Of a DNA stretch of 64,000 bases, positions 35,420-58,263 are shown one piece after another (position 1 is the stretch's first letter; every line of letters starts with the position of its first letter). The position numbers and the translations under genes were made by a program. This DNA is from Clostridiales bacterium (lineage in GTDB: Bacteria; Bacillota; Dethiobacteria; Dethiobacterales; Dethiobacteraceae): NCBI GenBank assembly GCA_018335855.1, contig JAGXRM010000038.1:124001-188000 (forward strand), in the 5' to 3' direction. The notes beneath the pieces were generated by a model, which searched no databases, had not been told where the DNA came from, and saw nothing but the letters and a program-made list of their open reading frames with translations.

Positions 35420-35510
35420 TGGCGGAGAGAGAGGGATTCGAACCCTCGAGACGCGTGAACATCTACCCGCTTTCCAGGCGAGCGCCTTCGACCAACTCAG
35501 CCATCTCTCC
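35420..35510 (-). tRNA. tRNA-Ser (anticodon GGA)
   Basis: 91 nt including an encoded CCA. Acceptor arm GGAGAGA/TCTCTCC, anticodon loop CTGGAAA, a long variable arm typical of tRNA-Ser, and T-arm GGGTTCGAATCCC. It lies just upstream of the SRP RNA on the same strand. Confidence 0.97.
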
Positions 35511-38141: not shown

Positions 38142-39839
38142 TCAGCGATTCATTTCGTATGCATCCTTCAGCGCATAAACTTCATTCTCCCAGACCCGAC
38201 GGTATCTGTGCTCATCTACAACCGGCTTCCTGATCATCTTAATCAGATAGTCCATTTGCTGCTGATTGGTAATAGGCTTACTGTAAAGCTGTAGAGCATA
38301 TTTAGAAAAGTCCCTTACCATAAAATCAAAAATCTGGTCCACCAGGTCATCTTCAATCTTGTATATCCCGGCATTCTCTAAAATTAGCTGCCCGTAAACG
38401 ACCAGTGTAAAAATTTCACCCAGTGCTAACAGGAAATCCGTGTCCCGGCGCTGAGCGTCATCGGGCGTTGCCGCCATTAGAAACTTCCTAAATAACGATA
38501 TCTGCTCCTTAAACACATTTACGTTTGGTAAATCCCGGCTATCATAGGCAGCAGTATAGTTATGGAAGCGAATTTTACTTAAGCCGCTTGCTGAACCCTG
38601 GTCAAACAGAAAGTCATCGTTGCAGGGTTGATCCTGCCTGGAAACCACCGGATAAACCTTGGGATTAAAGAAATAGTTGGCCATGAACTTGACAATCAGT
38701 GCTATATTCACATGCACTGTACCTTCAAGCTTCGGTAGTGCGCGAATATCCCTGGCAGCCATCTCAAAAAACGTGTCCTTCTCAAAACCTTTGGCCGCAA
38801 TCACATCCCATAACAGATTGATTACTTCCTCGCCCTGGGTTGTTACTTTCATCTTAACCGTGGGGTTATAAAGAAGATAGCGCCTGTCTTCCGGCGAAGC
38901 TGCCCGCATATAATCAGCTGCCCGCAGAGCAAAAAGCTTCATTGCTGTTAAGCGGCTGTACGCATCCACAAACATCTGCTTTACGTGGGGAAAGTCCGTG
39001 ACATACATCCCGTAGAGCTGCCGGTTGGCAGCATGATTCAGAGCCTCATAGAAGGCATGGGTGCAGATACCGACAGATGCCCAACCCAGATTATACTTCC
39101 CAACGTTCACAGTGTTCAGGGCCGCGTCCCAGGCGTCCTGCCCCCGGGACAAAAGATCTGTCTCTGTAACCACATAGTCATGAAGCTTGAAATCGGCTAC
39201 ATACGATTGTGAATTGACCACATTGGTCACCAGTTCATAGTTCTTGTTGCGGTAATTGGCCGTAAAAAACACATACTCACCGCTGTCTGCCACCTTCCCA
39301 AACGTAGAAACCATCTCGGCCACATTGCCGTTACCGATATAGTACTTCTCCCCGTTAGCCAGATATGTCCCGTCGGATTGCGGCGTCAAAGCCATTTCCG
39401 TGGCATAGATATCCGCACCGTGCGCCCTCTCTGACAGGCCAAAAGCAAATACTTCCCCTTGTTTTAATAACTCCGCCGCCTTGCGCTTGGCGTCTTCGTT
39501 GTTACTCATCCAGATTGGTCCCAACCCAAGGATAGATACTTGCCAGGTATACCAGTAGTGTAGACCGTAAAAAGCTAAAATCTCATTAAACTCACAGTTT
39601 CTCCAGGTATCCCAGCGACAGTCTTTATTCCCGTACCCTGCCGGCGTCAGCAGTGTGGAAAAAATCTCGTTTTCTTTTATAAACTGAAGCAGATCTTCAT
39701 ACCAGACCCGTTCCCGGTCGTCTTTTTTCAAACGGTCCTTTCCCTTGTTCTCAAAAAATTCAATGGTTTTTAGCATGATCTGGCGCGAACGTTCATCGGA
39801 GTATTCCCGGTTATGTTTTTTGGGATGTAAAAGAATCAT
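38142..39839 (-). CDS. Acyl-CoA dehydrogenase family flavoprotein
   Basis: 565 residues, longer than the usual 380. Segments FAFGLSERAHGADIYATEMALTP (flavin/substrate loop), GEKYYIGNGNVAEMVSTFGK, GWASVGICTHAFYEALNHAANRQLYG and EVINLLWDVIAAKGFEKDT follow the family order. About 150 extra C-terminal residues resemble a further helical domain. Substrate unknown. It stands alone between terminators, so no electron-transfer flavoprotein is linked here. GGGGAGGTG precedes the ATG. Confidence 0.85.
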   Translation of the reverse strand: MILLHPKKHNREYSDERSRQIMLKTIEFFENKGKDRLKKDDRERVWYEDLLQFIKENEIFSTLLTPAGYGNKDCRWDTWRNCEFNEILAFYGLHYWYTWQVSILGLGPIWMSNNEDAKRKAAELLKQGEVFAFGLSERAHGADIYATEMALTPQSDGTYLANGEKYYIGNGNVAEMVSTFGKVADSGEYVFFTANYRNKNYELVTNVVNSQSYVADFKLHDYVVTETDLLSRGQDAWDAALNTVNVGKYNLGWASVGICTHAFYEALNHAANRQLYGMYVTDFPHVKQMFVDAYSRLTAMKLFALRAADYMRAASPEDRRYLLYNPTVKMKVTTQGEEVINLLWDVIAAKGFEKDTFFEMAARDIRALPKLEGTVHVNIALIVKFMANYFFNPKVYPVVSRQDQPCNDDFLFDQGSASGLSKIRFHNYTAAYDSRDLPNVNVFKEQISLFRKFLMAATPDDAQRRDTDFLLALGEIFTLVVYGQLILENAGIYKIEDDLVDQIFDFMVRDFSKYALQLYSKPITNQQQMDYLIKMIRKPVVDEHRYRRVWENEVYALKDAYEMNR

Positions 39840-39986: not shown

Positions 39987-40397
39987 TTAGCCAAAATTTT
40001 TATCTATCCAAGCTTTAATTTCATCTCTAACATATCGAACTCTAGCTAAAATTTCTTCATCTCTGCCGGTAAATGTGGACGGGTCGGGAAAGCTTTCATG
40101 GAAATAATTCTTGCCGCCAGCAAAAAATGGGCATATTTCATTAGCATTGTCACAAACCGTAACAATATGGTCCAACTCCGCATCCTTAAACTCGTCGGCG
40201 CTCTTTGCCCTGTGTGATGACATATCGACGTCCATTTCTTCCATCACCATGACTACATACGGATTGAGGCTCCCGGGCTCCACCCCGGCACTATATGCTT
40301 CATACCGATCTCCGTAAAAATGGCGCAACAGGGCTTCTCCCAACTGTGAGCGAGCTGAATTATGGGTACACAGAAACAGAACTTTTTGCTTTGACAT
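39987..40397 (-). CDS. arsC: Arsenate reductase / low-molecular-weight phosphatase family (ArsC)
   Basis: 136 residues. VLFLCTHNSARSQLGEALLRH holds the P-loop CX5R of the thioredoxin-linked arsenate reductases. HIVTVCDNANEICPFF carries the second redox Cys, and HESFPDPSTFTG the general acid Asp. The gene stands alone without arsR or arsB, so detoxification needs partners elsewhere; a phosphatase role is possible. Start ATG 40397, with GGGGTGACC upstream. Confidence 0.88.
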   Translation of the reverse strand: MSKQKVLFLCTHNSARSQLGEALLRHFYGDRYEAYSAGVEPGSLNPYVVMVMEEMDVDMSSHRAKSADEFKDAELDHIVTVCDNANEICPFFAGGKNYFHESFPDPSTFTGRDEEILARVRYVRDEIKAWIDKNFG

Positions 40398-40843: not shown

Positions 40844-41872
40844 TCAATTCTGGCACTTACCATTCACCGCTTCCATAACTAACTGATACAAAGCATCCTC
40901 CCCCTGGCGGACCACATCCACCACCGGTGTTTTTAGGCGGGAGGACATGGTTGACCACATCTCATCAGCATCCAGCCAAGACTTGACAAACTCACGGTTA
41001 GCCTTGTTATACAATGGATAAAAAGGGTTGATGGTCACAGACAAAAGGGAAAGAGGGGAACGAACTCCGACGTTTCCCCCTTCTCTGCAATAATCCCGTA
41101 TCAACAGGGACATCTTTAACAAATCCCCACATAATAACAGCTTTATGGGATTACTAAAAACAAGGCCGGGCAGAGAAGGGCATTGACTCAACGTCTCTGT
41201 CAGACGGGTAAACGGTTTAATATCCACCATGCCGGAAAATTCTATGAAACTGTGAGTACAATCTGCAAACGAGTACACTTTCAGATTGCGTTCAATTAGC
41301 AGGTTTGTGACATGCAACGCAGGCTCTTGGATAGTCAACTGTGGCAGATTCAATAGAAACTCAATTGCCTGGGCTTCTTGAGCCAGTTCTTCTATATTTG
41401 TATTGCGGGACGCTCCTGTAGCAATAATTAAACCGTCTACAATACCCATAGGGGCAAGACGGTTTAAAGCACCGTCAACAAGCAGTACCCTAACATTATA
41501 TTTATCGAGACAGGCTACAGTCTGCTCCAATGTCTTTTTACTGTTGGGGCCGGCCAAAACGACGAGTCCGCTTCTGCGTACCCTGCAGATAAAGAGACTG
41601 CCTAAAGGAACCTGCAATTCCAACTTCTCCAGTTTTTCCAGAACTGCACTGCCAGCGTTTAGGCATTTTTCTGCAGTCACTACAATGGAGCCGGTTGTAA
41701 GGTGCAAGCGCGGTTTAGGCAGATTGGTTACGTTATCAATTTCTTCACCATCATAGCCAATACTGGTGACCGCCAAACTGGCAGGACTGGGCCATCTGCT
41801 GATAAGAGACATAGTAGCCGTTGTCTTACCTGTATTTTTCGCTGTCCCTGCAATGCCTATCTTTTTAATCAT
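40844..41872 (-). CDS. P-loop NTPase, putative partner of the B12-dependent mutase
   Basis: 342 residues. KIGIAGTAKNTGKTTATMSLI is a clear Walker A (GxxxxGKT). Later segments (VLLVDGALNRLAPMGIVDGLIIATGAS) look like a SIMIBI GTPase fold. Its ATG overlaps the stop of the mutase gene (ATGA), so the two are translationally coupled. B12 mutases often need an NTP-dependent reactivase; KamB/KamC of lysine 5,6-aminomutase and MeaB-like chaperones are examples. That role is inferred from context, not from a specific motif. Confidence 0.7.
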   Translation of the reverse strand: MIKKIGIAGTAKNTGKTTATMSLISRWPSPASLAVTSIGYDGEEIDNVTNLPKPRLHLTTGSIVVTAEKCLNAGSAVLEKLEKLELQVPLGSLFICRVRRSGLVVLAGPNSKKTLEQTVACLDKYNVRVLLVDGALNRLAPMGIVDGLIIATGASRNTNIEELAQEAQAIEFLLNLPQLTIQEPALHVTNLLIERNLKVYSFADCTHSFIEFSGMVDIKPFTRLTETLSQCPSLPGLVFSNPIKLLLCGDLLKMSLLIRDYCREGGNVGVRSPLSLLSVTINPFYPLYNKANREFVKSWLDADEMWSTMSSRLKTPVVDVVRQGEDALYQLVMEAVNGKCQN

Positions 41873-43692
41873 GCATGAACCTTATAAACAGTACCCCGAC
41901 CTGCCCGGCCCGGATAGGCGCCGTCTTCCCTTGTCCCCAGCAAGCCTTTGTACAGGCTTTGCGCAAAGTCCCCTTCTTGCGCTACCTGTGCTAACACCTT
42001 TTCTATGCCGCTTAAAATCTCCTGCGACCACTGGGCCGCCTGCTCGGTTGGTGCAATTTTCGCTTTTCCCAGAAAACGAAAAGATTCTTTCACAGCTTTT
42101 AATGTATCAACCCTGGAAGCAGCAGCAATGGGACCGCCGGAATACGCTTCATCAGAAGAAGCAATTGAAATTGCTTCCACTCCGCAAGAAGCGGCAAGAG
42201 CTGCATGCAGACAGGTTGACACGGAAGACTGGACCCGTTCTTCTGTCTGTGTTAAAAAGCCAATCGGCGCACCGGGCCAAATAGGTGCGTCAACAATCTC
42301 CCTGAGCGCTAGTATTTTGGCTATATTAAAATCAATATAATTATCATTCATGTAGCCGTTAATCATTACTTCCGGCGAATTACAAAACAGTGGTTGTAAA
42401 ATTGGCTGGGCACCTAATTGAAGTGCCAGATTAGCAACGATTAACATGCCAGCGAAAGCCTTATGAGCAGGAACACCCGACAGCTCCTCATTCGTTACCA
42501 CGTCAAAAGGCATATTGTAGCCGGCGGCGAATTTTATCGACTGGACACCGTCAACCAAAAGTCTTTCAGGGTCCGTACCGCCTCCGAGTGAACCGTAGAC
42601 AATATTAATTTTCGTCAAATCAGCACCGGCATTAGCGGCCAATACGACAGTTTCAGGGGTATTAACCCCCCTGTGTGCCCGGACCTGCCAAAGGGTGGTG
42701 TCAAGCAGCGAACTTTTTATACATTGCAGGTTTTCAGGTGTTATGACTGACCCGTCTTCCTGGTGCGTCTGGTATCCTTCCATAAACCCTTCCGTACGGG
42801 CACCCCAGGACGGGTCAAAATGAACTACACCATCAGCTCCCCAGGCTTCAGCTACCTTTATATGACCAATGTCAAGGGATGGACAGCCTGTGCCATATTG
42901 AACAAACACCGCCGGCTTGCTACGTGTGTGTCGCAAATCTATTGCTCTCATCCTGGAATTGGTTAGCTTTAAATAGTCACTGAGCGCGTCCAACTCACTT
43001 TTCTCCAGCCGGCGCGTCTGAGGATGAAGAGTCCCCTTCGTGTAATAATTACTAATTACTTCATCACAAAGCCGGGCATACTCTTTTTTTAGGCTGGCAG
43101 CATCTTTGCCGGCTTGGTTCTCCTCAATAATTGCCTGGCGCAGCAATGCTCTTCCTATTCCCGGACTGCTTTTACCTTGGCTCCAGGATAGAATCTGGCC
43201 TGCAATCTGATCTAAAAGCTTCTTAATGTTTGCGTGATGAAACGTATAATGATAATCGCTTGTAAGGTCATATCGCTTTTTTTGAGTGGCATACTCTGCC
43301 AGGGTATACTCCCGGCCTTCAACAAAGGCGACGGCCTCTTCCACAGTGGTACCGGGTCCAAAACCGGCATCAAAGCCCAGTTCGGCCGCAAACTCAGGCC
43401 TAATCGCCATACCGCCCACAGCTACCCTAATCTTTTCCCGTAACCCCGCAGCGTCCAATAGGTCCACAAAGCGGGCCAAGAGCTCCTCCACGCCGTAACC
43501 TAAGGTACGGCTGACAAGGACTGTGTCTGCCTTATGCTCTATGATGGCATTGATGATTTCCTGTGCTGAATAATCAGGAGGGTAAAGCCAGGTCTGATGG
43601 CCGGCCTCGTTGAGAGCGCGACGAATCATTTTAAGTCCGATATCATGTACCGGATCCATGGGAGCTAACACTACTTTTTTACTTACTGTCAT
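41869..43692 (-). CDS. B12-binding glutamate-mutase-like fusion protein
   Basis: 607 residues. The N-terminal domain (about 5-130) is a B12-binding Rossmann fold: DPVHDIG (H16, variant of DxHxxG), VSRTLG (about 60-65) and VAVGGMA (about 91-97). After a helical linker, the C-terminal part (about 240-600) resembles the TIM barrel of methylaspartate mutase E chain: FVQYGTGCPSLDIGHIKVAE, INIVYGSLGGGTDPER, and SSDEAYSGGPIAAASRVDTL. In known glutamate mutases the two parts are separate proteins. The fusion with B12 domain first suggests a distinct carbon-skeleton mutase or aminomutase. Substrate unknown. Confidence 0.75.
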   Translation of the reverse strand: MTVSKKVVLAPMDPVHDIGLKMIRRALNEAGHQTWLYPPDYSAQEIINAIIEHKADTVLVSRTLGYGVEELLARFVDLLDAAGLREKIRVAVGGMAIRPEFAAELGFDAGFGPGTTVEEAVAFVEGREYTLAEYATQKKRYDLTSDYHYTFHHANIKKLLDQIAGQILSWSQGKSSPGIGRALLRQAIIEENQAGKDAASLKKEYARLCDEVISNYYTKGTLHPQTRRLEKSELDALSDYLKLTNSRMRAIDLRHTRSKPAVFVQYGTGCPSLDIGHIKVAEAWGADGVVHFDPSWGARTEGFMEGYQTHQEDGSVITPENLQCIKSSLLDTTLWQVRAHRGVNTPETVVLAANAGADLTKINIVYGSLGGGTDPERLLVDGVQSIKFAAGYNMPFDVVTNEELSGVPAHKAFAGMLIVANLALQLGAQPILQPLFCNSPEVMINGYMNDNYIDFNIAKILALREIVDAPIWPGAPIGFLTQTEERVQSSVSTCLHAALAASCGVEAISIASSDEAYSGGPIAAASRVDTLKAVKESFRFLGKAKIAPTEQAAQWSQEILSGIEKVLAQVAQEGDFAQSLYKGLLGTREDGAYPGRAGRGTVYKVHA

Positions 43693-43925
43693 TTCCCATC
43701 CGCCCCTTTCAGCCAGCCGTATTTGTCACCGGCACGGAAAATATAACCACGTGCTCTGACTCTGGCTCCGGGACCAAGGTGTTGACAATACACGACATCA
43801 ATATCTTTCAGGCCCATTTCCGTCATTATTTTTTTAATGACCTCTTTGGCCTCATTTTCATCTTTTGCTACAACAAATGTTTCGACGTCAAGTGCATCAA
43901 TGATACTATCCAGGCAATGGGCCAT
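43689..43925 (-). CDS. Small protein upstream of the B12 mutase
   Basis: 78 residues: ALDVETFVVAKDENEAKEVI, then GLKDIDVVYCQHLGPGARVR and RAGDKYGWLKG. Not recognised. It overlaps the mutase start by ATGA, implying a stoichiometric partner, perhaps a small subunit as OraS is to OraE. AAAGGA supports the ATG at 43925 over the one at 43934. Confidence 0.65.
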   Translation of the reverse strand: MAHCLDSIIDALDVETFVVAKDENEAKEVIKKIMTEMGLKDIDVVYCQHLGPGARVRARGYIFRAGDKYGWLKGADGK

Positions 43926-43950
43926 AAACAGCATCCTTTCTCTGTTAGAG

Positions 43951-44682
43951 TTATGTTTTGCCTTCTTCTTTGTGCACCAGAGACCAGAATTTTTGCACGT
44001 CGGAGATTAGATTATCAACGTGCTCCACCATGGCTTTTTCTGCTGCTTCAGGATCGCGGGCTCTGAGTGCTGTATAAATTTTATAATGGTCTTGCAGTAC
44101 CTGGCTGTGTACCTGTTTGCGGATATACTCCAGCACCGGCGAAAGTTGCGCATCCTGACGAATGAGGTCAAGTGCTGCTCTAAGTACCTTATTTCCTGCC
44201 GCTTCGGCAAGTAAATAGTGGAACTCCACATCTTTTTCTACCACACTTTTTGTTGATGCAGCCAGTCCGGGTTTTGCTATGCCTTCCATCAGGCTTAACT
44301 GGTGCGAAGTAATGTTAAGCGCAGCCTGACGGGCAATCTCACGTTCAATCGCTTTACGGGCTACAAGTATTTCTAAAAGTTCCTCTTTATTCCTTGACCC
44401 AACCAAATTCGCTAACTTCTGTGAATGATGCATACGCGCTTCTTCATTCACAATTTGCTCCAACCGCTCTTTACCAAATTCAGTTAAAATCCTGCCTTTG
44501 AAACCTTCCCTCTGCGTTAAACCCTGCTGGTCTAATAGGCGAAGCAATCGCCCTACCGTCGCTTCACTTACGTTATATTCTGCCTCATTCAGAGCCTTGC
44601 ATGCAGAGCCGCAACCTACAGGGGCATCGCTTCCGGCAATAAATTTTAGTAAAACAAGCTGTTCTTTTCTCTCTCTCAACAT
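43951..44682 (-). CDS. Winged-helix/FCD transcriptional regulator
   Basis: 243 residues. The N-terminal wing (about 10-80: APVGCGSACKALNEAEYNVS, EATVGRLLRLLDQQGLTQ) resembles the RNase R/NrpR-type winged helix rather than GntR. The C-terminal all-helical FCD domain (about 95-235) has KDVEFHYLLAEAAGNKVL and a later H in DHYKIYTALRARDPEAAEKAMVEHV, which are metal/ligand positions in FadR-like regulators. It probably controls this cluster in response to a carboxylate or amino-acid effector. Two direct repeats overlap its own promoter. Confidence 0.82.
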   Translation of the reverse strand: MLRERKEQLVLLKFIAGSDAPVGCGSACKALNEAEYNVSEATVGRLLRLLDQQGLTQREGFKGRILTEFGKERLEQIVNEEARMHHSQKLANLVGSRNKEELLEILVARKAIEREIARQAALNITSHQLSLMEGIAKPGLAASTKSVVEKDVEFHYLLAEAAGNKVLRAALDLIRQDAQLSPVLEYIRKQVHSQVLQDHYKIYTALRARDPEAAEKAMVEHVDNLISDVQKFWSLVHKEEGKT

Positions 44683-44718
44683 TCCCCATCCCCCCCTGGC
44701 AATCAGTGTGTTGTTGAC

Positions 44719-44771
44719 ATTCTACTATTTGCCAGTAAAAATTGCAATTTAATTTTGTACTATTTACCAGT
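44719..44771 (-). promoter_or_regulatory. Regulator promoter with two direct-repeat operators
   Basis: On the minus strand TTGCAA (44742-44747), a 17-nt spacer and TAGAAT (44719-44724). The 14-mer TACTATTTRCCAGT (plus strand) occurs at 44723-44736 and 44758-44771, 35 bp apart. The first copy covers the spacer and -10. This arrangement suits autorepression. Confidence 0.65.
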
Positions 44772-44784
44772 CATGAGAGAGAGT

Positions 44785-44822
44785 ACTAGTAACCGCCAGC
44801 TTATTAACTGGCGGTTACTAGT
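44785..44822. terminator. Hairpin between the permease and regulator genes
   Basis: Fifteen-base arms ACTAGTAACCGCCAG / CTGGCGGTTACTAGT with an 8-nt loop. The T-run is weak, so it may only partly terminate the upstream operon. Confidence 0.6.
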
Positions 44823-44847
44823 ATTTTATTCATTGTAAAGCTTTTCT

Positions 44848-46281
44848 TTACATCATGAAAACGGCAACGATGGATGCGGTGATAAGACCACAGGCAACAG
44901 GAATAAAGTTTTTGCGGGCCAGATCTAAAGGATTGACTCCCGCAACACCAGCAGTAGCTACAAGGCCAAAGGCCCAGGCTGCAATGGTACCACCGCCGGA
45001 CCAAACAGCACCCATTTGACCGATAGCTGCCATGGCAGGCACACTGACACCAGCCGCGCCGCCAATGGATTGGGCCAGGCTGGCAGTCAGGGGCAGGCCT
45101 GAAAATCCGGAGCCATCAAGACCGGTAATTACACCAATGAACATGTTACCGAAAGAAAGTGCGAATTTATTCATCGGCAAAGAGGTAGCCAATTTGGTGC
45201 CCAAATCAAAAAGCAGTCTGGGAGCGCCTTCGCCTAGAATATCCGCCGCCGCACCGGCACCCAGAAAGAAAAAGCCGGCAATGGGAATAACAGGAGCGAA
45301 AATTTTAATTGCAAAGCCCATACCCTCACGCAAATGTCCCACAATCGACTCCAGAGCGTAATGGCCCTCTTCGAGAACACTGTTGAAAATCAGCATGGCA
45401 ACAGCAGCTCCGCCCAACAAAGCGGTTGCATCCCCACCACGGATATGGGGCATCGCTTCAATAAACTTAGAAGAAATCATGAGGATAATAATGGAGATGA
45501 ACACAGCAGGCACCACAATAGCACTGATAACCGCTTTATTATCTTTCCTTACCTTCGGCTCAGCCGCTGAAACCAGTTCGCTGCAGGCAGCCAGTTCACC
45601 GCTTGCCACTTTGGCACAATTGATGGTAATCTCTTTACGCATCATGAAGTAAGCAACTAAAATTGCAACGATACCTGTCACCCAGGAAAGAATGGCAACA
45701 TTACCCAGCATAGACCCGGAAGCAAGTCCTGCCGAGCGTTCGCTCAAACCAGGTGCGCCCTGGATGACAAGGTCTCCCGATAAAGCAACCCCGTGTCCAA
45801 AGATGTTAACGGCCATGGCAGCTGCCATGGGAGGCAGGCCTGCTTTTACAGCAACGGGAATCAGCATAACACCAACCAGAGCTGTAGCAGGAGTAGGCCA
45901 GAAAAAGAGAGCACAGACATACATAACACTGCCCAGTGCAAAAAAGCTAAGATGCGGGTTCACCATGAGCTTGCGGGCCGGAGAAACCATCAGATAGTCC
46001 GATCCCAGCTTTTGCATCGCTTTTAGCATCGCCACCATCAGAGCTATGACCAACATGATGTCAAACAAGTCCATACCGGCAATCATCAGTGCATTAAATG
46101 ATGACTGAATGGCAAAAACGATTCTCGCCACAAATGAACCCTGGGAATAGAGAAGACCGATGGTAAAGATACCAATTAAACAAGGCAACACAACATCCCG
46201 TCTGAGAACCATTGTAATAACGACGATAACAATAAAAAGCAGGTAAATCCAGTGAGAGGCAGTAAGAACTACTCCATCCAT
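44848..46281 (-). CDS. Multi-pass permease of the B12 cluster
   Basis: 477 residues, about 12 membrane helices (WIYLLFIVIVVITMVL, MLVIALMVAMLKAM, SVMYVCALFFWP ...). A conserved mid-protein loop (VNIFGHGVALSGDLVIQGAP) and its likely symmetric partner (MFIGVITGLDGSGFSGLPLTAS) suggest two inverted halves as in GntP, citrate or NhaC-type transporters. Family is not certain; probably a cation-coupled importer of a carboxylate or amino acid. GGAGG lies ten bases before the ATG. Confidence 0.75.
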   Translation of the reverse strand: MDGVVLTASHWIYLLFIVIVVITMVLRRDVVLPCLIGIFTIGLLYSQGSFVARIVFAIQSSFNALMIAGMDLFDIMLVIALMVAMLKAMQKLGSDYLMVSPARKLMVNPHLSFFALGSVMYVCALFFWPTPATALVGVMLIPVAVKAGLPPMAAAMAVNIFGHGVALSGDLVIQGAPGLSERSAGLASGSMLGNVAILSWVTGIVAILVAYFMMRKEITINCAKVASGELAACSELVSAAEPKVRKDNKAVISAIVVPAVFISIIILMISSKFIEAMPHIRGGDATALLGGAAVAMLIFNSVLEEGHYALESIVGHLREGMGFAIKIFAPVIPIAGFFFLGAGAAADILGEGAPRLLFDLGTKLATSLPMNKFALSFGNMFIGVITGLDGSGFSGLPLTASLAQSIGGAAGVSVPAMAAIGQMGAVWSGGGTIAAWAFGLVATAGVAGVNPLDLARKNFIPVACGLITASIVAVFMM

Positions 46282-46457
46282 AAGTTAGCAACCTCCTAGA
46301 CGTTTTTATTTTTTTAAAACTAAGATAGCTACACTCCCCGTCTCCAAGCCCCCTTTCTGTTATTACCGCATAGCCGGTGCCGCCAGAATATAATGGACAA
46401 TTTAAAATCTTTTGTATATTTCAGGCAGAGAAAACAGAAGTTGTCTCTGCCCGTCAG

Positions 46458-47741
46458 TTAGTTAGTGGGTGTTTTTGCAAAAATCCCAGTCAACCCTGCT
46501 TCAGCAACACGATTTTCAACTACCGATTTCTCCGTGGTATACAGATCCTTGTCTTTCAGTGCATTAAAGAGAACAGAACCTGAGAAGGTATACTTCTTGC
46601 CCATTCCTCCCGGGGTCGCCATTTCTTCTTTCACCCAGGCAATCGCTTCACCGATAATCAGGCTGCGCGGAATTTCCAGCATCTTTACTCCCATTGCCGA
46701 GCATACAGCATTGTATCCGGCCAGGGTACCTGTGACAATAGCCTCGGTATGTCCTACCAGCAGGCCTGCCTTTTCCCCACCGCAGAACAGGTTATCCACG
46801 CCTTGTACCTGGAGATGGTTGTCGCGGGGTGAAAGAGCGAGATAACGCATTGAGTTCCCTGTGCCACCGGCATACGGGTCTTCATAGCGTGCTTCAGCAA
46901 AGCCGGGAATCTGGCGTAATGCTTCCAGGGGAAAGTAGGAAGTCATGAGCTTCGCATGACCTGTATCCAACAAAATAATATTTTGCTCAAATTCAGGCAG
47001 AGCATATTGCTGACAAGCCTTCTTCTCCATGGAACCGGTTTTCCGCATTTTTTCCGGAATAGGAATGATAGCAACACCTTTGGCATTCAATTCCTTAAGG
47101 ATTTCCGGTGCCAGTGACTCTTTATGCAGTTTACAGGAACCGCTCATAGCACCGATAGTGCCGTCTTCTTTAATACCCATAAACTCTTCGACGCCGGCTT
47201 TAGCAGCAATACTGACACGGCCTCCAAAGGTAGGACAGCGTAGAATACACATGGCACAGCCGTTGCCGTACTTTGTACAGTTAGCCATACCGCCTGCTGT
47301 ACCGGTAGCCTCTATAAATACATCCGCTTCCAATTTAGTTCCGTCGGCAAGGACAACTGCTGCGATTTTCTTCCCGTTCATTTCAACGTTTTTGGCTGCA
47401 CTCATACAGATAAGGCGAATCCCTTTACTTTCCAATAACTGCCGTACTGCCGGTTCAATTTTTGCCACATCGTATAATGATGCATGCTTGTGTCCGGGGA
47501 AATCTATATTCGTATGCCTTGAAACGCTATCTGTTACCTCAAACAGGTCGCCGCCACCCATAGCAATTGCTTCCTCGGTCGCTGTCCAGCGCCCGTTGTT
47601 ACGCATAATCCCTCCTACCAGTCCGGTTCCAAGCAACATATCAGTACGTTCAACCAGTGTGACATGTGCGCCTGCCTTGGCAGCAGCTAAAGCTGCCGCA
47701 GAGCCTGCCCATCCTCCGCCTACTACTACTACGTTTATCAT
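46458..47741 (-). CDS. FAD-dependent oxidoreductase of the B12 cluster
   Basis: 427 residues. The N-terminal Rossmann motif VVVVGGGWAGSAAALAAAKAG is followed by an FAD-binding signature near the C-terminus (VDNLFCGGEKAGLLVGHTEA). The overall layout recalls GidA/TrmFO-like flavoproteins and 'FAD-dependent oxidoreductase' proteins of anaerobes. A CAMCILRCP cluster at about residues 165-173 could be redox-active or bind a metal. No membrane segment. Likely oxidises an amine or hydroxy acid in this pathway, inferred from context. Confidence 0.72.
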   Translation of the reverse strand: MINVVVVGGGWAGSAAALAAAKAGAHVTLVERTDMLLGTGLVGGIMRNNGRWTATEEAIAMGGGDLFEVTDSVSRHTNIDFPGHKHASLYDVAKIEPAVRQLLESKGIRLICMSAAKNVEMNGKKIAAVVLADGTKLEADVFIEATGTAGGMANCTKYGNGCAMCILRCPTFGGRVSIAAKAGVEEFMGIKEDGTIGAMSGSCKLHKESLAPEILKELNAKGVAIIPIPEKMRKTGSMEKKACQQYALPEFEQNIILLDTGHAKLMTSYFPLEALRQIPGFAEARYEDPYAGGTGNSMRYLALSPRDNHLQVQGVDNLFCGGEKAGLLVGHTEAIVTGTLAGYNAVCSAMGVKMLEIPRSLIIGEAIAWVKEEMATPGGMGKKYTFSGSVLFNALKDKDLYTTEKSVVENRVAEAGLTGIFAKTPTN

Positions 47742-47878
47742 AGGTACCTACCCCCGTGTTAAAATAGTTAGTTTTTCCTGTTTGCGGTATCTGTAATAAA
47801 TTTCGGCGGCCATGCATTAAAACTCAAGTAAATACTTGGATATCTGCATGACCACCGGAAAATTAACTGCCAAAAACT

Positions 47879-49324
47879 TTAGTTATAAGCATACTTTGTA
47901 ATAATCTCAATCAACTTAACTAATGCTTTCACGGCGTAACGAGCTCTCTCTTCGATGATCTGGCCCTTTTCATCCGTTGTGCCAAGACCCGGTGAAATAT
48001 AAATATTGGCATCATAGGCGATGGTGGGAATTACACCCATTTGAGCTAAACCGGTCTGGAGAAGATTGGAGCCCGCATACATATCTTCAATGGAGAAGAT
48101 GGGAATCCCTGAGCCATCAGCCCAAGTTCCTTCGTAATTGACTTCAATTGCTGTCGAGTTATAACTCTTGTTGAAGATAATTCCCTGACGCAGATTCGCA
48201 TCCAACTGACTGAATTCCTGCTCAATGATATCATAGAAGTCATCAACAGGCTTGGTCAGCACCTCCGGCGCATCCTTCAGCACACGCAGCGCAGCAATTT
48301 GGCCCAGCAGTGCTTCTTTACCGGGATCCTGAGTAACGTAGGCTGCTTTTCCGTAAGATGCGGTTGTGCCCCAACGATCGCCATGCATCCCCATAGCCCG
48401 GCGAATCGGCACCATATATTCTTCCTTGCCGATAATCAAGCCACTGGTTGTGGCGCCGCTTGCCTTGTCCATGCTGTAAATCATCACATCTGCGCCGGTC
48501 TTCCGGATGTCAGTACCAACGAAAGGAATGCCCCAGGCATTATCAACAATATAGGGAACGTTCCACTTTTGAGCCAAACGGCTCAAACCTTTCTGTAAAA
48601 GAGGAACTCCGTTTTCATCTTTTTGTCCATAACCGTACCCCGGCGTTTCATAGCCAAGAGAAGCAAACCCAGTCACTTGATCGGCATGACGCTGTGCCAC
48701 TTCTTCCATTTTTGCCACGGTTTTTTCAGCATCGACCCCTGTTAACAAAGGTACAGGCCAATACTTGATGCCGTGCACAGGATACTCTGCACCTTCCATG
48801 GGAACGATGACGGTGTCCATGTTATTTTGTCTTTTACCATAAAAACCTAGCTCACCTGCAGACGATCCGCGGTCAGCAAAAATATCTTTATACTTCGGAG
48901 GAAACGGGCGACCGTATGCTCCATGGTGATGTAAATGCTTTTCCAAAGGAGCTAAGTAGCGGGTCCGGTAATTATCACCGCGGCCAAGATTCGGAGGGGT
49001 AAGCAGACAATCATAGGCTGTCCAAAGACCAGCCTCACAGGTGTTGACGGGAGCGCAATCATATTCATCCCCATAAAAACCTTTAATCAGTTCCCTGATA
49101 TCATCGACTAACTTGGCCAGGGGGATAACTTTCTTGCCGCCTTCCTCACAAAAATGTGCAATATCGTCACGCAAGGGTGCGGGACAACCGGATATTGCAC
49201 CGGTTAAACCAAACGTACCTTTCAAATCATCGGGAATACCAATTTCTGCAGCGGCATCCTTCGCCTCTTTATAGATGGCGGGGATATTAGCCTGCAGCTT
49301 TTTATAAATTTGATACTTAAACAC
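47879..49324 (-). CDS. Fold-type I PLP-dependent enzyme of unknown specificity
   Basis: 481 residues. VDNAWGIPF supplies the Asp (D261) that contacts the pyridine nitrogen, and IYSMDKASGATTS the Schiff-base Lys (K287), typical of the aminotransferase fold. CEAGLWTAYDCLL and HGDRWGTTASYGKAAYV are further fixed points. Similarity is to SepSecS/aminotransferase class V-like proteins, but I cannot name a function. Candidates are a lyase, transaminase or racemase acting on the cluster's substrate. It lies 21 nt after the first gene. Confidence 0.75.
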   Translation of the reverse strand: MFKYQIYKKLQANIPAIYKEAKDAAAEIGIPDDLKGTFGLTGAISGCPAPLRDDIAHFCEEGGKKVIPLAKLVDDIRELIKGFYGDEYDCAPVNTCEAGLWTAYDCLLTPPNLGRGDNYRTRYLAPLEKHLHHHGAYGRPFPPKYKDIFADRGSSAGELGFYGKRQNNMDTVIVPMEGAEYPVHGIKYWPVPLLTGVDAEKTVAKMEEVAQRHADQVTGFASLGYETPGYGYGQKDENGVPLLQKGLSRLAQKWNVPYIVDNAWGIPFVGTDIRKTGADVMIYSMDKASGATTSGLIIGKEEYMVPIRRAMGMHGDRWGTTASYGKAAYVTQDPGKEALLGQIAALRVLKDAPEVLTKPVDDFYDIIEQEFSQLDANLRQGIIFNKSYNSTAIEVNYEGTWADGSGIPIFSIEDMYAGSNLLQTGLAQMGVIPTIAYDANIYISPGLGTTDEKGQIIEERARYAVKALVKLIEIITKYAYN

Positions 49325-49345
49325 TTCTAAACACTCCTTTTTAAA

Positions 49346-49768
49346 TTATTTCTTACAACACTGTAAATCCTGACCAATCTGTAAATCTCTTTCACTTCCG
49401 GAAAGTGCTTGTCCGTGAATCACAATATTTAAGTGATTAGGCATATGAGTTTCATCAAAGCCGCAGACAGTCCCGATGACTTCATTGTCAATCATAATTG
49501 TGTCTCCTGAAACCATAACGCCGCCGTTTTGAAATTCGACGAATCCCAGGTACGCAATGGAATCCACTCTGTCTCCCGGTCGCGCATCTTTAACAGCAAT
49601 GATCAGCTCATGAACCTCATTCTTACAAATTACCCGTGATGGTTGAGATATGAGTTGTAAACCACGGCTAGAAAACTTTCCGTCCAACACTGCTACCAGC
49701 TTTCCCATAAGAGGGGCTTTTAGCACATATGGGTCCCTTTTAAACATCTTTACCTTATAAGGGTCCAC
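49346..49768 (-). CDS. DUF6917-like protein, first gene of the catabolic cluster
   Basis: 140 residues with beta-rich segments LMGKLVAVLDGKFSSRGLQL, VKDARPGDRVDSIAYLGFVE, and MIDNEVIGTVCGFDETHMPN HLNIVIHG-type core. Resembles a domain of unknown function found beside PLP and B12 enzymes. The frame opens with a GTG at 49777 that touches GGGAG; the GTG at 49768 is correctly spaced and preferred. A perfect palindrome lies 29 nt upstream. Confidence 0.7.
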   Translation of the reverse strand: MDPYKVKMFKRDPYVLKAPLMGKLVAVLDGKFSSRGLQLISQPSRVICKNEVHELIIAVKDARPGDRVDSIAYLGFVEFQNGGVMVSGDTIMIDNEVIGTVCGFDETHMPNHLNIVIHGQALSGSERDLQIGQDLQCCKK

Positions 49769-49796
49769 AAAATTCACTCCCTTTATTTTCTAGCCG

Positions 49797-50171: not shown

Positions 50172-50390
50172 CTAATGCTCAAGAATAAAAAGCTTATGTT
50201 CCAATTCTTCAAGCGGGAATTTTAAACCGGGGCAGTTCCGATTATGAGGCTCTACATGATGAAAAGGAATTTTATATTTCTGCATCAAAGAAAACACCTC
50301 ATCAACCAGATCATCCATCTTCTTTACTTTCACATGCAAGCTGTGTTCCGGAATATCCGGGCAGTCTTCCTTATGTAGCACAATGACCAT
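50172..50390 (-). CDS. Small soluble protein of unknown function (72 aa)
   Basis: VIVLHKEDCPDIPEHSLHVKVKKMDDL, then HHVEPHNRNCPG and a Leu-rich helix. The two Cys and several His could bind a metal. GGGAGTG precedes the ATG. Not recognised; probably cotranscribed with the 37-aa gene 12 nt downstream. Confidence 0.65.
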   Translation of the reverse strand: MVIVLHKEDCPDIPEHSLHVKVKKMDDLVDEVFSLMQKYKIPFHHVEPHNRNCPGLKFPLEELEHKLFILEH

Positions 50391-50527: not shown

Positions 50528-50785
50528 CTAACAACGTGTTCCCCAAAATACAAACCCAATCCCTGTCAGCAACATCATCAGATTAACTGGATTTAGAGAA
50601 CTGCTTAGCCCTGCGATGCCCAAGGCACTGACTGACAGAAAAATAAATGGTCCTATACTGCCAATAATTCCGTTGGCACGTACGGCAAAGGCAATATCTT
50701 TTTTTAGCATCAGTAGACCGGCTACCAAGCTAATTAAGCCAAATGTGATCCTGAGCACTGCCATGAATGCTATCCTGATATCCAT
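50528..50785 (-). CDS. yqhV: YqhV (DUF2619) family membrane protein, copy 2
   Basis: 85 residues, three helices; SIGPFIFLSVSALGIAGL is nearly identical to the copy at 52553. In Bacillus yqhV adjoins the spoIIIA operon; here it follows an acetolactate-synthase-like gene. Function unknown. Probably paralogous by tandem duplication. Confidence 0.85.
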   Translation of the reverse strand: MDIRIAFMAVLRITFGLISLVAGLLMLKKDIAFAVRANGIIGSIGPFIFLSVSALGIAGLSSSLNPVNLMMLLTGIGFVFWGTRC

Positions 50786-50800
50786 ACACCACCTCCGCCG

Positions 50801-52480
50801 CTACTTTGCGGTTGTAACCATTTCATTAATTGGACAATTGGGAGGCACCATGGGAAAAACATTTTCCCCGGTCTTCACTCTAAAGTCTATCACGACCGGG
50901 CCTGGCGTACTCAGCGCTTTTTGCAGCACAGGAATAACTTCAGACGGCTTTTGCGCCCTCAATCCCAAAGCACCGTAAGCCTCAGCCAGTTTAACAAAAT
51001 CCGGACTGCCTTTTTGAAGAACAACCGAAGAATAACGGCTGTGAAAAAACATCTCCTGCCATTGTCTGACAAGGCCCAGATGTTGATTATTAATAATGGC
51101 AACTTTAACAGGCAGGCAATACTTTACGGCTGTGGCCAGTTCCCGGATATTCATCTGAAAACTACCGTCTCCGGCGATACAAAAAACAACATCATCCGGA
51201 CAACCTAATTGAACTCCGATTGAAGCGGGAAACCCATAGCCCATGGTACCCAGTCCACCCGATGACGCAAAAGAGCGTGGTTTATTAAATTTATAGTACT
51301 GCGCCGTCCACATTTGATGCTGTCCTACTTCTGTTGTGATTAATGCCTTGCCTTCTGTTTGCTCATAGATCTGTTCAATAACAAACTGTGGGCAAATTTC
51401 GCCATCCGCATCCTGACAGTAGCGCATGGGAGCACAGCGCCGCCATTCATTAATTTTCGCCAGCCAAGGCTCTGTATTCTCAGGCCCGGGCTTTTTCAGT
51501 AATTGTGTTAAAACCTGCTTGATATCTCCGACAATGGGAATATCAGCACGAACGTTTTTCCCGATTTCTGCCGGATCTATATCAACATGAATGATTGTGG
51601 CATCCTTAGCAAAATCGCTTTTTCTGCCTGTAACACGGTCGTCAAAACGAGCACCGGCTGCAATAATTACATCTGCTTCATTTACTGCCATATTGGCCCA
51701 ATAAGTACCGTGCATGCCCAGCATTCCCAAAGCCAGAGGATGCCCCGTGGGAAATCCTGACAAACCCATTAGTGTCGTAGTTACAGGAATGCTAAATTTT
51801 TCAGCAAACTGCCGTAATTCCTCATGCGCACCTGAATAAATAATTCCGCCACCGGCATAAATAACTGGCTTATTAGCTTGGGCCAGAACCTTTGCCACTT
51901 TGTTTACCTGGCCCGGGTGACAATTGTAGACAGGATTATAACCGCGCATATAAATATTTTTCGGATACCTAAAAATTCCGATGTCCATCTGGACGTGGAT
52001 GGGTAAATCAATAAGAACAGGTCCACATCTACCCGTTGTTGCCAAATGAAAAGCTTCTCTGATCGTACGGGGCAAATCTGAAACCGATTCAACCACTGTA
52101 CTATGTTTTGTGATTGGCAAGGTGATGCTAAAGACATCCACATCTTTGTAGGCATCGTTAACACTATTTGCTGACATACCATGGCCGGTGAAAATCACCA
52201 TGGGGACAGAGTCCATATAGGCAGTGGCTATACCAGTTACAAGGCTGGTTGATCCCGGACCGGATGTGCTAAAGACGATACCCGGTTTCCCCGTGGCTCT
52301 TGCATAACCGTCTGCAGCATGGGCTGCACCCTGCTCGTGACAATACATAACGAACCGGATATCGGCCTCGGTTAACTGATTAACCACATTATCCGATGTA
52401 CCTCCGGGATAACAAAATACTGTATCCACAAGCTCTTTCTTCAGAGCCTCTACTACTATTTGGATCCCGCTCATTTTCAT
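50801..52480 (-). CDS. Acetolactate synthase-like TPP enzyme, copy 2 (diverged)
   Basis: About 559 residues, TPP-dependent carboligase fold. The catalytic Glu (CHEQGAAHAADGYARATGKPG), TPP motif GDGSFQMN...NN and VRQWQEMFF (the Trp linked to 2-oxobutyrate preference in AHAS) are kept. The segment that reads TGQVAIPLIGTDAFQE in copy 1 is changed here to TGHGMSANSVNDAYKD, losing the conserved Gln, so catalysis may differ. GAGGTG favours the ATG at 52480. No regulatory subunit gene follows. Confidence 0.85.
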   Translation of the reverse strand: MKMSGIQIVVEALKKELVDTVFCYPGGTSDNVVNQLTEADIRFVMYCHEQGAAHAADGYARATGKPGIVFSTSGPGSTSLVTGIATAYMDSVPMVIFTGHGMSANSVNDAYKDVDVFSITLPITKHSTVVESVSDLPRTIREAFHLATTGRCGPVLIDLPIHVQMDIGIFRYPKNIYMRGYNPVYNCHPGQVNKVAKVLAQANKPVIYAGGGIIYSGAHEELRQFAEKFSIPVTTTLMGLSGFPTGHPLALGMLGMHGTYWANMAVNEADVIIAAGARFDDRVTGRKSDFAKDATIIHVDIDPAEIGKNVRADIPIVGDIKQVLTQLLKKPGPENTEPWLAKINEWRRCAPMRYCQDADGEICPQFVIEQIYEQTEGKALITTEVGQHQMWTAQYYKFNKPRSFASSGGLGTMGYGFPASIGVQLGCPDDVVFCIAGDGSFQMNIRELATAVKYCLPVKVAIINNQHLGLVRQWQEMFFHSRYSSVVLQKGSPDFVKLAEAYGALGLRAQKPSEVIPVLQKALSTPGPVVIDFRVKTGENVFPMVPPNCPINEMVTTAK

Positions 52481-52552
52481 GCTCGACTTCACCTCAATTG
52501 TAAAAACAATCCCGATAAAACGTTATATATACTCTTCAGATTTGTTGCAATT

Positions 52553-52810
52553 CTAACGGATCCCTAACATAATCAATGTTACGCCCAGAATCAGCAGTAG
52601 CAGTTTCCGCTTATCCATTTTTGCACGTAAAGCTGCGATGCCCAAGGCGCTCACGGAAAGAAAAACAAAAGGCCCTATGCTTCCTAAAATACCATTAATT
52701 AATATGGCCTGTTGCAGATCATTAAAATAAAAAATCAGCAGCCCTCCGGTTAGACCCAGAAGGCCGTAAATCACCCTGGTCAATCCCATAAGCTTTACCC
52801 TTGCATCCAT
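52553..52810 (-). CDS. yqhV: YqhV (DUF2619) family membrane protein, copy 1
   Basis: 85 residues; helices around VIYGLLGLTGGLLIFYF, GSIGPFVFLSVSALGIAAL and LLLLILGVTLIML. About as long as copy 2 and sharing the central motif. It lies 32 nt after ilvN and before the second synthase. Confidence 0.87.
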   Translation of the reverse strand: MDARVKLMGLTRVIYGLLGLTGGLLIFYFNDLQQAILINGILGSIGPFVFLSVSALGIAALRAKMDKRKLLLLILGVTLIMLGIR

Positions 52811-52841
52811 GCAGACAACCCCTCTGTAGCCCGTGTCTCAG

Positions 52842-53330
52842 TTATTTTATTGTCTTGCTGCCTCTCAATATTGCAATTTTCCCCGTCCTGACAACTTCAA
52901 GGATGGTGTATTGTGAAAGCAACATTGTAATGGCTTCAATCTTTTCCTGGTTGCCCGTAACTTCGATAATTATCGAATTTAAAGCGACATCAACAATTTT
53001 AGCTCTAAACGTTTCCACGATTTGCTGAATTTCAGCCCTGTTGCCAACATCTGCACTTACTTTTATGAGCACCAGTTCTCTGTCCACTGAAGGCTCCTGA
53101 GTCAGGTTGGACACTTTTAAAACATTGATTAATTTATATAGCTGTTTAATAATCTGCTCTAAAATCTTTTCATCGGCTTCCACCTCGATGGTCATCCGAG
53201 ACACCATCGGCTCAACGGTTTTTCCCACAGCAAGGCTTTCAATATTATAACCCCTCCGGGAAAAAAGGCCTGCCACTCTGACGAGCACACCGGGCTTATC
53301 TTCCACCAGTACAGCTAAGACGTATCTCAT
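52842..53330 (-). CDS. ilvN: Acetolactate synthase small (regulatory) subunit
   Basis: 162 residues. N-terminal ACT domain (YVLAVLVEDKPGVLVRVAGLFSRRGYNIESLAVG) that binds valine for feedback inhibition, then the conserved ALS_ss_C domain (RELVLIKVSADVGNRAEIQQI). Its ATG overlaps the ilvB stop (ATGA), indicating coupled translation. Confidence 0.95.
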   Translation of the reverse strand: MRYVLAVLVEDKPGVLVRVAGLFSRRGYNIESLAVGKTVEPMVSRMTIEVEADEKILEQIIKQLYKLINVLKVSNLTQEPSVDRELVLIKVSADVGNRAEIQQIVETFRAKIVDVALNSIIIEVTGNQEKIEAITMLLSQYTILEVVRTGKIAILRGSKTIK

Positions 53331-55006
53331 TTTTGTTCCCCCTTTATCATTTTGTTAATTTGACTATTAGGTGGAACCATGGGAAAAACATTGGTATTAG
53401 ACATAACTCTGAAATCGATGACTGCGGGACCGCTAAACGCCAATGCCTCTTCTATGGCAGGCACGACATCCGCCGGCTTCTCGACACGCAGGCCTAATGC
53501 ACCATAGGCCTCAGCCATTTTGGCAAAATCAGGCACCTGTTGCAAATCGACGGAAATATATCGGCCCTTACAATAAAATTGCTGCAACTGGCGGACCATT
53601 CCCAGGCATTGATTATTAATAATTGCCACTTTAACAGGAATATTGTATTCCACAGCCATAGCAAGTTCCTGGGAATTCATCAGAAAACTGCCATCTCCGG
53701 CAATACAAAATACCAATTCGTCGGGACGCCCGACTTGCATGCCAAGAGATGCAGGGAATCCGTATCCCATCGCACCCAATCCACCCGAGGAAGCCAGGGA
53801 ACGCGGCCGCGTAAACTTGTAATACTGAGCAGTCCACATCTGATGCTGGCCCACTTCCGTCGCAATCAACGCTTTCCCTTGTGTCTTTTCATAAATTTTT
53901 TCAATAACAAATTGTGGAGATATTTCGCCATTCATATCCTGCGAATAGCTGAGAGGAGTTTCTTCCTTCCACTTCGCGATTTTTTCCAGCCACGGACCTG
54001 TATCTGATGGCCCCAATTTTTTCAGCAGTTCCGTTAGAACAAGCTTAACATCACCCACAATAGGGACGTCAACCTGGACGTTTTTCCCTATTTCCGCCGG
54101 ATCAATATCAATATGAACAATCTTTGCTTTACTGGCAAAACGTTTGGCGTCCCCTGTTACCCTTTCATCAAACCGCGCTCCCACGGCAAGAATCATGTCG
54201 GCGTTACTAACAGCCATATTTGCCCAGTACGTTCCGTGCATTCCCAGCATACCCAACGCCAGGGGATGATTTCCGGGAAAAGCGGACAGACCCATTAGTG
54301 TTGTCGTTACGGGAATTCCGCACTGTTCAGCCAACTGCAACAACTCTTCGTAGGCACCGGAATTTGTTACTCCGCCTCCTGCGTAAATTACAGGCTTTTT
54401 AGCACGGGCAATAGCTCTGGCACCTCTGGATATTTGTCCGGGATGACCGTTATAGGTTGGATTATACCCCGGAATGGATACATTCTCAGGATAACGGAAC
54501 TCTGCAACAGCCTGCTGTACATCCTTTGGAATATCAATCAGTACGGGGCCGCATCTGCCTGTGGTGGCCAGGTAAAAAGCCTGCTTAATAATTGTAGGCA
54601 ATTCACGCACATCTTTGACCAGAAAATTATGCTTTGTAATGGGGAGCGTAATCCCTGTAATGTCAACCTCCTGGAAAGCATCGGTGCCAATTAAGGGAAT
54701 CGCAACCTGCCCGGTTATAAAGACCATAGGAACAGAATCCATATAGGCGGCGGCAATGCCCGTAACCAAGTTGGTAGCCCCGGGACCGGATGTGGCCAGA
54801 ACCACCCCTGGCTTTCCTGTGGCACGTGCATATCCGTCCGCAGCATGCGCCGCACCCTGCTCGTGCCTGGATAAAATATGGCGAATGTCCGTGTCATAAA
54901 GCATATCATAGAGGTTTAGGACATTACCGCCGGGATACCCAAATATGGTATCAACATTCTCGTGTTTTAAGGCCTCCATGACCATTTGTGCGCCGGAAAT
55001 TTTCAT
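53327..55006 (-). CDS. ilvB: Acetolactate synthase large subunit, copy 1
   Basis: Condenses two pyruvates (or pyruvate and 2-oxobutyrate) in Val/Leu/Ile synthesis; uses TPP, Mg and FAD. 559 residues: FGYPGGNVLNLYDML, SRHEQGAAHAADGYA (catalytic Glu), TGQVAIPLIGTDAFQE, GDGSFLMN...NN. Where AHAS enzymes have VRQWQ this one has VRQLQ, losing the Trp that favours 2-oxobutyrate in E. coli AHAS II. It may thus prefer pyruvate. The T-box upstream fits amino-acid control. Confidence 0.95.
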   Translation of the reverse strand: MKISGAQMVMEALKHENVDTIFGYPGGNVLNLYDMLYDTDIRHILSRHEQGAAHAADGYARATGKPGVVLATSGPGATNLVTGIAAAYMDSVPMVFITGQVAIPLIGTDAFQEVDITGITLPITKHNFLVKDVRELPTIIKQAFYLATTGRCGPVLIDIPKDVQQAVAEFRYPENVSIPGYNPTYNGHPGQISRGARAIARAKKPVIYAGGGVTNSGAYEELLQLAEQCGIPVTTTLMGLSAFPGNHPLALGMLGMHGTYWANMAVSNADMILAVGARFDERVTGDAKRFASKAKIVHIDIDPAEIGKNVQVDVPIVGDVKLVLTELLKKLGPSDTGPWLEKIAKWKEETPLSYSQDMNGEISPQFVIEKIYEKTQGKALIATEVGQHQMWTAQYYKFTRPRSLASSGGLGAMGYGFPASLGMQVGRPDELVFCIAGDGSFLMNSQELAMAVEYNIPVKVAIINNQCLGMVRQLQQFYCKGRYISVDLQQVPDFAKMAEAYGALGLRVEKPADVVPAIEEALAFSGPAVIDFRVMSNTNVFPMVPPNSQINKMIKGEQK

Positions 55007-57011: not shown

Positions 57012-57054
57012 GCTAATCCCTCCAGCGTAGTTCAGTTTGCATTATTTTTGCCAT

Positions 57055-58242: not shown

Positions 58243-58263
58243 TAAAATCCTCCTCCTGCACGC

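Follow-up and report, generated by a model that had tools for sequence, protein, structure and literature searches.

The 64,000-nucleotide stretch of DNA analysed here (the window) spans positions 124,001 to 188,000 of contig JAGXRM010000038.1 (assembly GCA_018335855.1) of a Clostridiales bacterium assigned to the Dethiobacteraceae, and carries a cluster of eight genes, all on the minus strand at 40844–49777 of the window in the open reading frame (ORF) list. The cluster suggests an undescribed breakdown route for an amino acid or a compound like it, and at its core lies a fusion protein, referred to below as the mutase, in which a B12-binding domain precedes a barrel whose nearest known system is lysine 5,6-aminomutase. 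The eight kinds of gene that a first-pass annotation had named are all there, at the place it had given, apart from the DUF6917 gene, which reaches 49777 and not 49768. The genes are as follows (aa, amino acids; PLP, pyridoxal 5'-phosphate; FAD, flavin adenine dinucleotide).

49346–49777, minus strand: DUF6917 protein, 143 aa (PF21891, E 3.8e-44)
47879–49324, minus strand: fold-type-I PLP enzyme, 481 aa (weak family matches; fold type I by model)
46458–47741, minus strand: FAD oxidoreductase of the GIDA/FAD_oxidored type, 427 aa (PF01134, E 2e-33)
44848–46281, minus strand: permease, 477 aa (without meaningful Pfam match)
43951–44682, minus strand: regulator with winged helix and FCD domain, 243 aa (PF07729, E 9.9e-24; PF08461, E 2e-12)
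43689–43934, minus strand: small protein, 81 aa, like the KamE/OraE dimerisation domain but free-standing (PF16554, E 5e-4, below cut-off)
41869–43692, minus strand: B12 mutase, 607 aa, B12 domain and KamD-like barrel (PF02310; KamE profile; KamD fold)
40844–41872, minus strand: KamB-family P-loop reactivase, 342 aa (NF052386, E 1.1e-54, under the model's cut-off)

Four-base ATGA overlaps link the three mutase genes, as the annotation had also reported: one ATGA, read directly, holds the end of the small protein gene and the start of the fusion gene, and the mutase gene (41869–43692) overlaps the P-loop gene (40844–41872) by four bases. A 20-pair inverted repeat with a loop of 8 bases, terminator- or operator-like, lies between the permease and regulator genes at 44780–44827 of the window, so that the cluster may comprise two transcription units.

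A search with the mutase of 398 genomes from the window's phylum (presumably the Bacillota) gave matches in 93, of which 55 were to the B12 domain or a piece only, leaving full-length mutases in 38 genomes at 41 loci (one of them in two pieces; window included). Neighbours were counted within 10 kb of the mutase at these 41 loci, on the same strand unless noted; the counts are lower bounds, some loci lying on short contigs. Gene maps of GC-rich loci were made with tblastn. Conservation of the gene set around most of the loci, the neighbourhood comparison that the annotation had proposed as a check, was borne out: the small protein was found at 39/41 loci, the P-loop protein at 38/41, the PLP enzyme at 37/41 (38/41 on either strand), DUF6917 at 35/41 (36/41 on either strand), the FAD enzyme at 33/41 and the regulator at 32/41, while a RidA-family protein was near the mutase at 24/41 (likewise 24/41 on either strand) and a permease homologue at 17/41. 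Of the 398 genomes, 39 have DUF6917 and 40 have the PLP enzyme, both sets including all 38 mutase genomes; the extras are one genome with both genes (G387) and one with the PLP enzyme only (G050). The class of Sporomusa malonica has the mutase in 18 of 150 genomes, at 25 loci, several genomes having two copies, and 20 of these loci were read: DUF6917 was nearby in 19/20, the PLP enzyme in 19/20 and the P-loop gene in only 13/20. As most of the 41 loci and most of these 20 retain the neighbourhood, the grouping is not due to chance, and the eight-gene set is a real, conserved unit.

In the phylum of a Treponema carrier, the mutase was found in that genome alone (1/198), with a locus consisting of DUF6917, PLP enzyme, small protein, mutase and P-loop protein, and nothing more. 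A scan of named genomes, some of them shared with the 398-genome sample, gave at least 27 full-length loci (L062–L088), with carriers including Tepidanaerobacter, Fervidicola, Desulfovirgula, Heliorestis, Heliobacterium, Sporomusa, Symbiobacterium, Dethiobacter, Candidatus Adiutrix and Treponema. The sample contains 14 further genomes of the window's class, and a full-length mutase was found in none of them (0/14), so the window's copy may have been acquired by transfer. Plasmid records gave only two matches, both to the B12 domain.

The mutase has its B12-binding domain (PF02310) at residues 14–121, with the motif DPVHDIGLK and H16 as the histidine, followed by a barrel at residues 150–607. 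The axial-histidine motif DxHxxG is present throughout, D13, H16 and G19 being found in 41/41 mutases (G19 in 19/20 sequences of a second alignment, A2). Against the KamE profile the B12 domain scored 99.2% (E 6.5e-20). The AlphaFold2 model of the mutase (predicted local distance difference test score, pLDDT, 86.2) matches KamD best in the barrel (1xrs_A; Z 32.4, root-mean-square deviation 3.0, 385 aligned residues, 17% identity), ahead of glutamate mutase (Z 26.4) and then the ornithine aminomutase OraE (Z 25.4), and Foldseek also placed KamD first. Profile comparison agreed, with KamD at 84.8% (E 6.6e-6), and at 83.0% for residues 140–607, compared with 3.6% for glutamate mutase, or 0.28% with the barrel core alone. 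No match to PF06368, the GlmE family, was seen in the mutase up to E 10. Of the known systems, lysine 5,6-aminomutase rather than glutamate mutase is the closest; the "glutamate-mutase-like" label of the first-pass annotation must be replaced, since KamD is nearer by both fold and profile and the three mutase genes are rearranged KamD, KamE and KamB parts. A close homologue of proven standard activity, which would have spoken against the annotation's reading, did not turn up in a search among solved structures, where sequence matches were limited to the B12 domain plus one chance-level piece (E 0.21).

Although glutamate mutase is thus rejected as the nearest relative (lower fold rank, no PF06368 match, profile of 3.6%), the protein might still be its functional counterpart, holding an amino-dicarboxylate by arginines and rearranging its skeleton, with the PLP enzyme replacing methylaspartate ammonia-lyase. 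The barrel of glutamate mutase does rank second by fold, and the genome itself has only a borderline PF06368 match (26.4 bits against a cut-off of 26.6), which lies beside a B12-domain gene and which we read as a putative methylmalonyl-CoA mutase. R299 and R338 are moreover invariant in 41/41 mutases and match by eye, in a register unsupported by the profiles, two residues of the arginine claw given as R66, R100 and R149 in PMC9545868, namely Arg100 and Arg149. On the other hand, the profile values are as low as stated above, and in the same register G267 would take the place of Arg66 and K361 that of Glu171, with loss of the amine contact. We judge this explanation improbable.

The two partner proteins point to the same ancestry. 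The small protein matches the OAM_dimer family (PF16554) with E 0.0005 and 20.9 bits, below the cut-off of 25, and the N-terminal dimerisation domain of KamE by profile (86.4%, 37 columns). For the P-loop protein, the model NF052386 of the lysine 5,6-aminomutase reactivase KamB gave E 1.1e-54 and 185.7 bits, below the cut-off of 210, and four homologues from other cluster loci scored 249.1, 243.2, 191.3 and 180.2 bits, two of them (L048 and L063) passing the cut-off and two (L081 and L088) not. As the NCBI KamB model places two of these four above its cut-off, automated annotation could point to lysine fermentation in places where it possibly does not occur.

One difference from lysine 5,6-aminomutase concerns its second cofactor. 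PLP is carried by Lys144 of KamE and by Lys629 of OraE, as stated in PMC3958899 and PMC4256349, respectively. In an alignment of 12 KamE sequences K144 is invariant and stands 11 residues past the histidine, and the PLP-lysine motif was found in 15 of 16 KamD loci examined. The alignment of the mutase with KamE is gapless from H16 to L27, and H16 accordingly pairs with H133 and L27 with K144. Position 27 is leucine in 41/41 mutases (in alignment A2, with 20 sequences, leucine in 19 and methionine in one); the PLP lysine is lost in the mutase family, and the leucine is solid. Most of the KamD contacts to PLP also appear to be gone from the barrel, a result by alignment that is weaker than that for the leucine. 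In the KamD profile alignment, Arg184 is replaced by D293, the phosphate loop (Gly187, Gln188 and Ser189) is deleted, Tyr236 becomes A339, Ser238 becomes R341, Arg268 becomes G/A371 and Tyr263 is retained as Y366, so that of the seven contacts (Arg184, Ser189, Tyr236, Ser238, Tyr263, Arg268 and Asn299) one would be kept and five lost, Asn299 being ambiguous.

That the mutase is simply a lysine 5,6-aminomutase of a diverged lineage is suggested by its fold and by the KamB relation, yet we consider this scarcely credible. The PLP lysine is lost, PF09043, the KamD/OraE model, finds no match in the mutase protein or in its own genome, and at least five genomes (G075, G080, G112, G116 and G125) have the mutase plus a strong KamD match. 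Apart from the KamB-like protein, family scans recognised no known enzyme of lysine or ornithine fermentation among the eight genes, in line with the annotation's view that the set fully fits none of the known B12-dependent fermentations of glutamate, lysine and ornithine. A standard lysine or ornithine aminomutase was rejected on both domain order and PLP lysine. One locus (L095), considered as a distant mutase homologue, looks like an ordinary KamDE locus and was dropped.

The PLP enzyme of the cluster gave weak family matches to Aminotran_5, DgaE/SelA and sulfhydrylase families, the best local ones being DgaE/SelA-like and sulfhydrylase. Its model (pLDDT 77.9) has fold-type-I neighbours with Z of about 20–21, and the fold search singled out no family, aldolases, aminotransferases and desulfurases being nearly tied. 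Judged from the surrounding motif, K287 is probably its Schiff-base lysine. In DUF6917, a THxPNHxN motif (residues 110–117 of the window protein) is invariant in 32/32 aligned sequences including that of the window, and possibly forms a metal site. RidA lies near the PLP enzyme in many loci. RidA hydrolyses enamines and imines produced by PLP enzymes. In the window, genes of the RidA family and of the PorABCD type lie apart from the cluster and are candidate pathway members:

55600–56052, minus strand: RidA-family protein, 150 aa, putative displaced cluster member (58% identity to the RidA of locus L050)
56079–59213, minus strand: PorABCD-type 2-oxoacid:ferredoxin oxidoreductase, adjoining RidA, with a putative link to the pathway

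The window RidA matches models of the Rid family and of enamine/imine deaminases, all under their cut-offs. Like the loss of the PLP lysine, this RidA gene had not been noted in the annotation. Partial copies of the set that lack a mutase of their own also occur: in G303 one of DUF6917, PLP enzyme, FAD enzyme and permease, in G033 one of the PLP and FAD enzymes, and in G209 a tandem second set of DUF6917, PLP and FAD genes. The PLP module is thus perhaps able to act without the isomerase, which would fit the isomerase as an extra step before it. Neighbour counts for a second FAD gene (FAD2) came from cross-matches to the FAD gene and were set aside.

Taken together, we favour with moderate confidence the reading that the mutase belongs to the lysine 5,6-aminomutase clan and is a rearranged adenosylcobalamin-dependent radical isomerase, most likely free of PLP, which works with a KamB-like reactivase and with a PLP enzyme that is a distinct protein. 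The permease would take up the substrate, and the isomerase, composed of the 607-aa B12-barrel protein and the 81-aa dimerisation protein, would rearrange its carbon skeleton via a 5'-deoxyadenosyl radical. The fold-type-I PLP enzyme may then eliminate from, or deaminate, the isomerase product to give an enamine or imine, which RidA would hydrolyse to a 2-oxoacid, for conversion to acyl-CoA by the oxoacid:ferredoxin oxidoreductase. The FAD enzyme would perform a redox step without a fixed place in this presumed order, and the FCD regulator may sense the substrate.

Several observations weigh against the PLP-free isomerase and its pathway. The KamD profile falls to 35.9% once the mutase is trimmed to the barrel core. 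The map of barrel residues is a profile alignment with 84.8% probability and low diversity (Neff about 2), and is the weaker for that low diversity. The carbon-skeleton chemistry is an analogy, since glutamate mutase is unsupported by sequence (3.6%). RidA was not found within 10 kb at 17 of the 41 loci, including the window and its closest relatives among them, L042 and L043, and the window RidA has beside it acetolactate synthase genes behind a T-box, which look biosynthetic; for this reason the link of RidA and the Por enzyme to the cluster is only putative. Genome G387, which has a PLP enzyme fragment (at a contig end), FAD enzyme, permease, RidA and DUF6917, gave no mutase match. Finally, Y366, whose KamD counterpart stacks on PLP, and K361 are both invariant in 41/41 mutases and allow PLP at another site. 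The mutase could accordingly still be a PLP-dependent aminomutase that moves an amino group in some amino acid which is neither lysine nor ornithine, with PLP lying in the barrel against Y366 and either unanchored or held via another lysine, for instance K361; KamD as the nearest fold and the retained dimerisation-domain and KamB-like partners agree with this. Leucine at the PLP-lysine position in 41/41 sequences does not, nor do the deleted phosphate loop and the replacement, by alignment, of Arg184, Ser238 and Arg268, and we regard such an enzyme as unlikely, if the most serious competitor to PLP-free catalysis.

Should the isomerase be PLP-free, it would illustrate the path from a radical enzyme with two cofactors to one with a single cofactor, and DUF6917, which has no assigned function, and a little-known PLP family would gain a shared pathway. 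Few families of adenosylcobalamin isomerases are known so far. It is conceivable, if on balance rather doubtful, that a PLP-free isomerase derived from a re-cut aminomutase scaffold represents a new class of adenosylcobalamin enzyme and opens an anaerobic route, so far undescribed, for a substrate whose fermentation via B12 is not known, the isomerase being tied to DUF6917 and a new fold-type-I PLP family in all 38 carriers of the sample. In a literature search, with subscription journals mostly outside its coverage, no paper was recognised as dealing with this cluster, and within the same coverage none was found under the names of DUF6917 and the reactivase.

The neighbourhoods offer a few leads to the substrate, which may or may not be an imported and rearranged amino acid or amine as the annotation had proposed. 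A peptidoglycan-derived amino acid, for example diaminopimelate or a D-amino acid, is one candidate: the Treponema locus (L081) has genes for an LD-carboxypeptidase, an M14 carboxypeptidase and an oligopeptide transporter near the cluster, L151 has a D-aminopeptidase and AnmK near its PLP and DUF6917 genes, and a gene resembling D-Ala-D-Ala carboxypeptidase by its sequence occurs in 13 of 59 locus stretches. These genes belong to few loci and to other operons or strands, however, the 13/59 may only reflect a common housekeeping location, and none was recognised within 10 kb of the window cluster, where no dedicated search was run; we give this origin of the substrate little credence. On one contig of G257 (L206 and L146), a 48% homologue of the PLP enzyme stands amid MmgE/PrpD, M19 dipeptidase, AstE/AspA and class-V aminotransferase genes, and about 16 kb further DUF6917 lies beside an aspartate-dehydrogenase-like gene. 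In three related loci (L184, L186 and L195) another gene follows directly after the regulator; the one in L195 passes the model for D-cysteate sulfo-lyase (CuyA) and the other two are 87–88% identical to it, but as it occurs only in these three it was not used as a substrate clue. The peptidoglycan, aspartate-dehydrogenase-like and D-cysteate sulfo-lyase-like genes are in too few loci to decide.

Ahead of DUF6917 lie genes for a protein of 72 aa that has no Pfam match and for a DUF2619 protein (50172–50390 and 50528–50785 of the window); L042 has in this place a homologue of 77 aa and a protein of 85 aa with similar sequence. A second ilvB-like gene (50801–52492) adjoins the cluster. The acetolactate synthase genes at 50801–55006 are unlikely to be pathway members, as a T-box leader (55230–55451, minus strand, 125 bits) precedes the first of them; an ilvB-like gene within 10 kb of the mutase was seen at only one of the 41 loci, the window itself, which also weighs against their membership. 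Slightly in its favour, L144 and L145 have ilvB-like genes near mutase-free copies of DUF6917 or the PLP enzyme. On the other side of the cluster lie a gene at 39987–40397, presumably for an arsenate reductase, and a 565-aa acyl-CoA dehydrogenase-like protein (38142–39839), which scores far under the cut-offs of every NCBI model matched. A large signal recognition particle RNA (35134–35398) and a tRNA (35423–35510) stand side by side in the window.

Set against known systems, the cluster resembles three to different degrees. Glutamate mutase (GlmES) is not known to require PLP. It shares the barrel fold (Z 26.4), with arginine contacts possible by eye only. According to PMC9545868, its barrel and its B12 subunit form two chains, whereas they are fused here, in a protein without PF06368 match and with a glutamate mutase profile of 3.6%, and the partner is KamB-like. 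D-Ornithine 4,5-aminomutase (OraSE) shares the barrel fold (Z 25.4) and the dimerisation domain (PF16554), but the B12 domain of OraE lies towards the C-terminal end of one long chain (alignment 627–740 of 763) and that of the mutase is N-terminal, and where OraE has PLP on Lys629 (PMC4256349), the PLP-lysine position of the mutase, mapped via KamE, is leucine. Lysine 5,6-aminomutase (KamDE) shares the most: a KamD-type barrel, a KamE-type B12 domain with axial histidine, a dimerisation domain and a KamB-family protein. No KamC, the ATPase partner in the KamB/KamC reactivase, was noticed in the neighbourhoods read, in which no search aimed at it was made. The accompanying genes are otherwise different, the PLP lysine has become leucine and the PLP contacts are, by alignment, mostly lost. 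While KamE joins the dimerisation and B12 domains and leaves the barrel separate, the B12 domain is here fused before the barrel and the dimerisation domain has a gene of its own, so that all parts of the mutase trace to lysine 5,6-aminomutase in a new order of B12 domain, barrel and free dimerisation domain.

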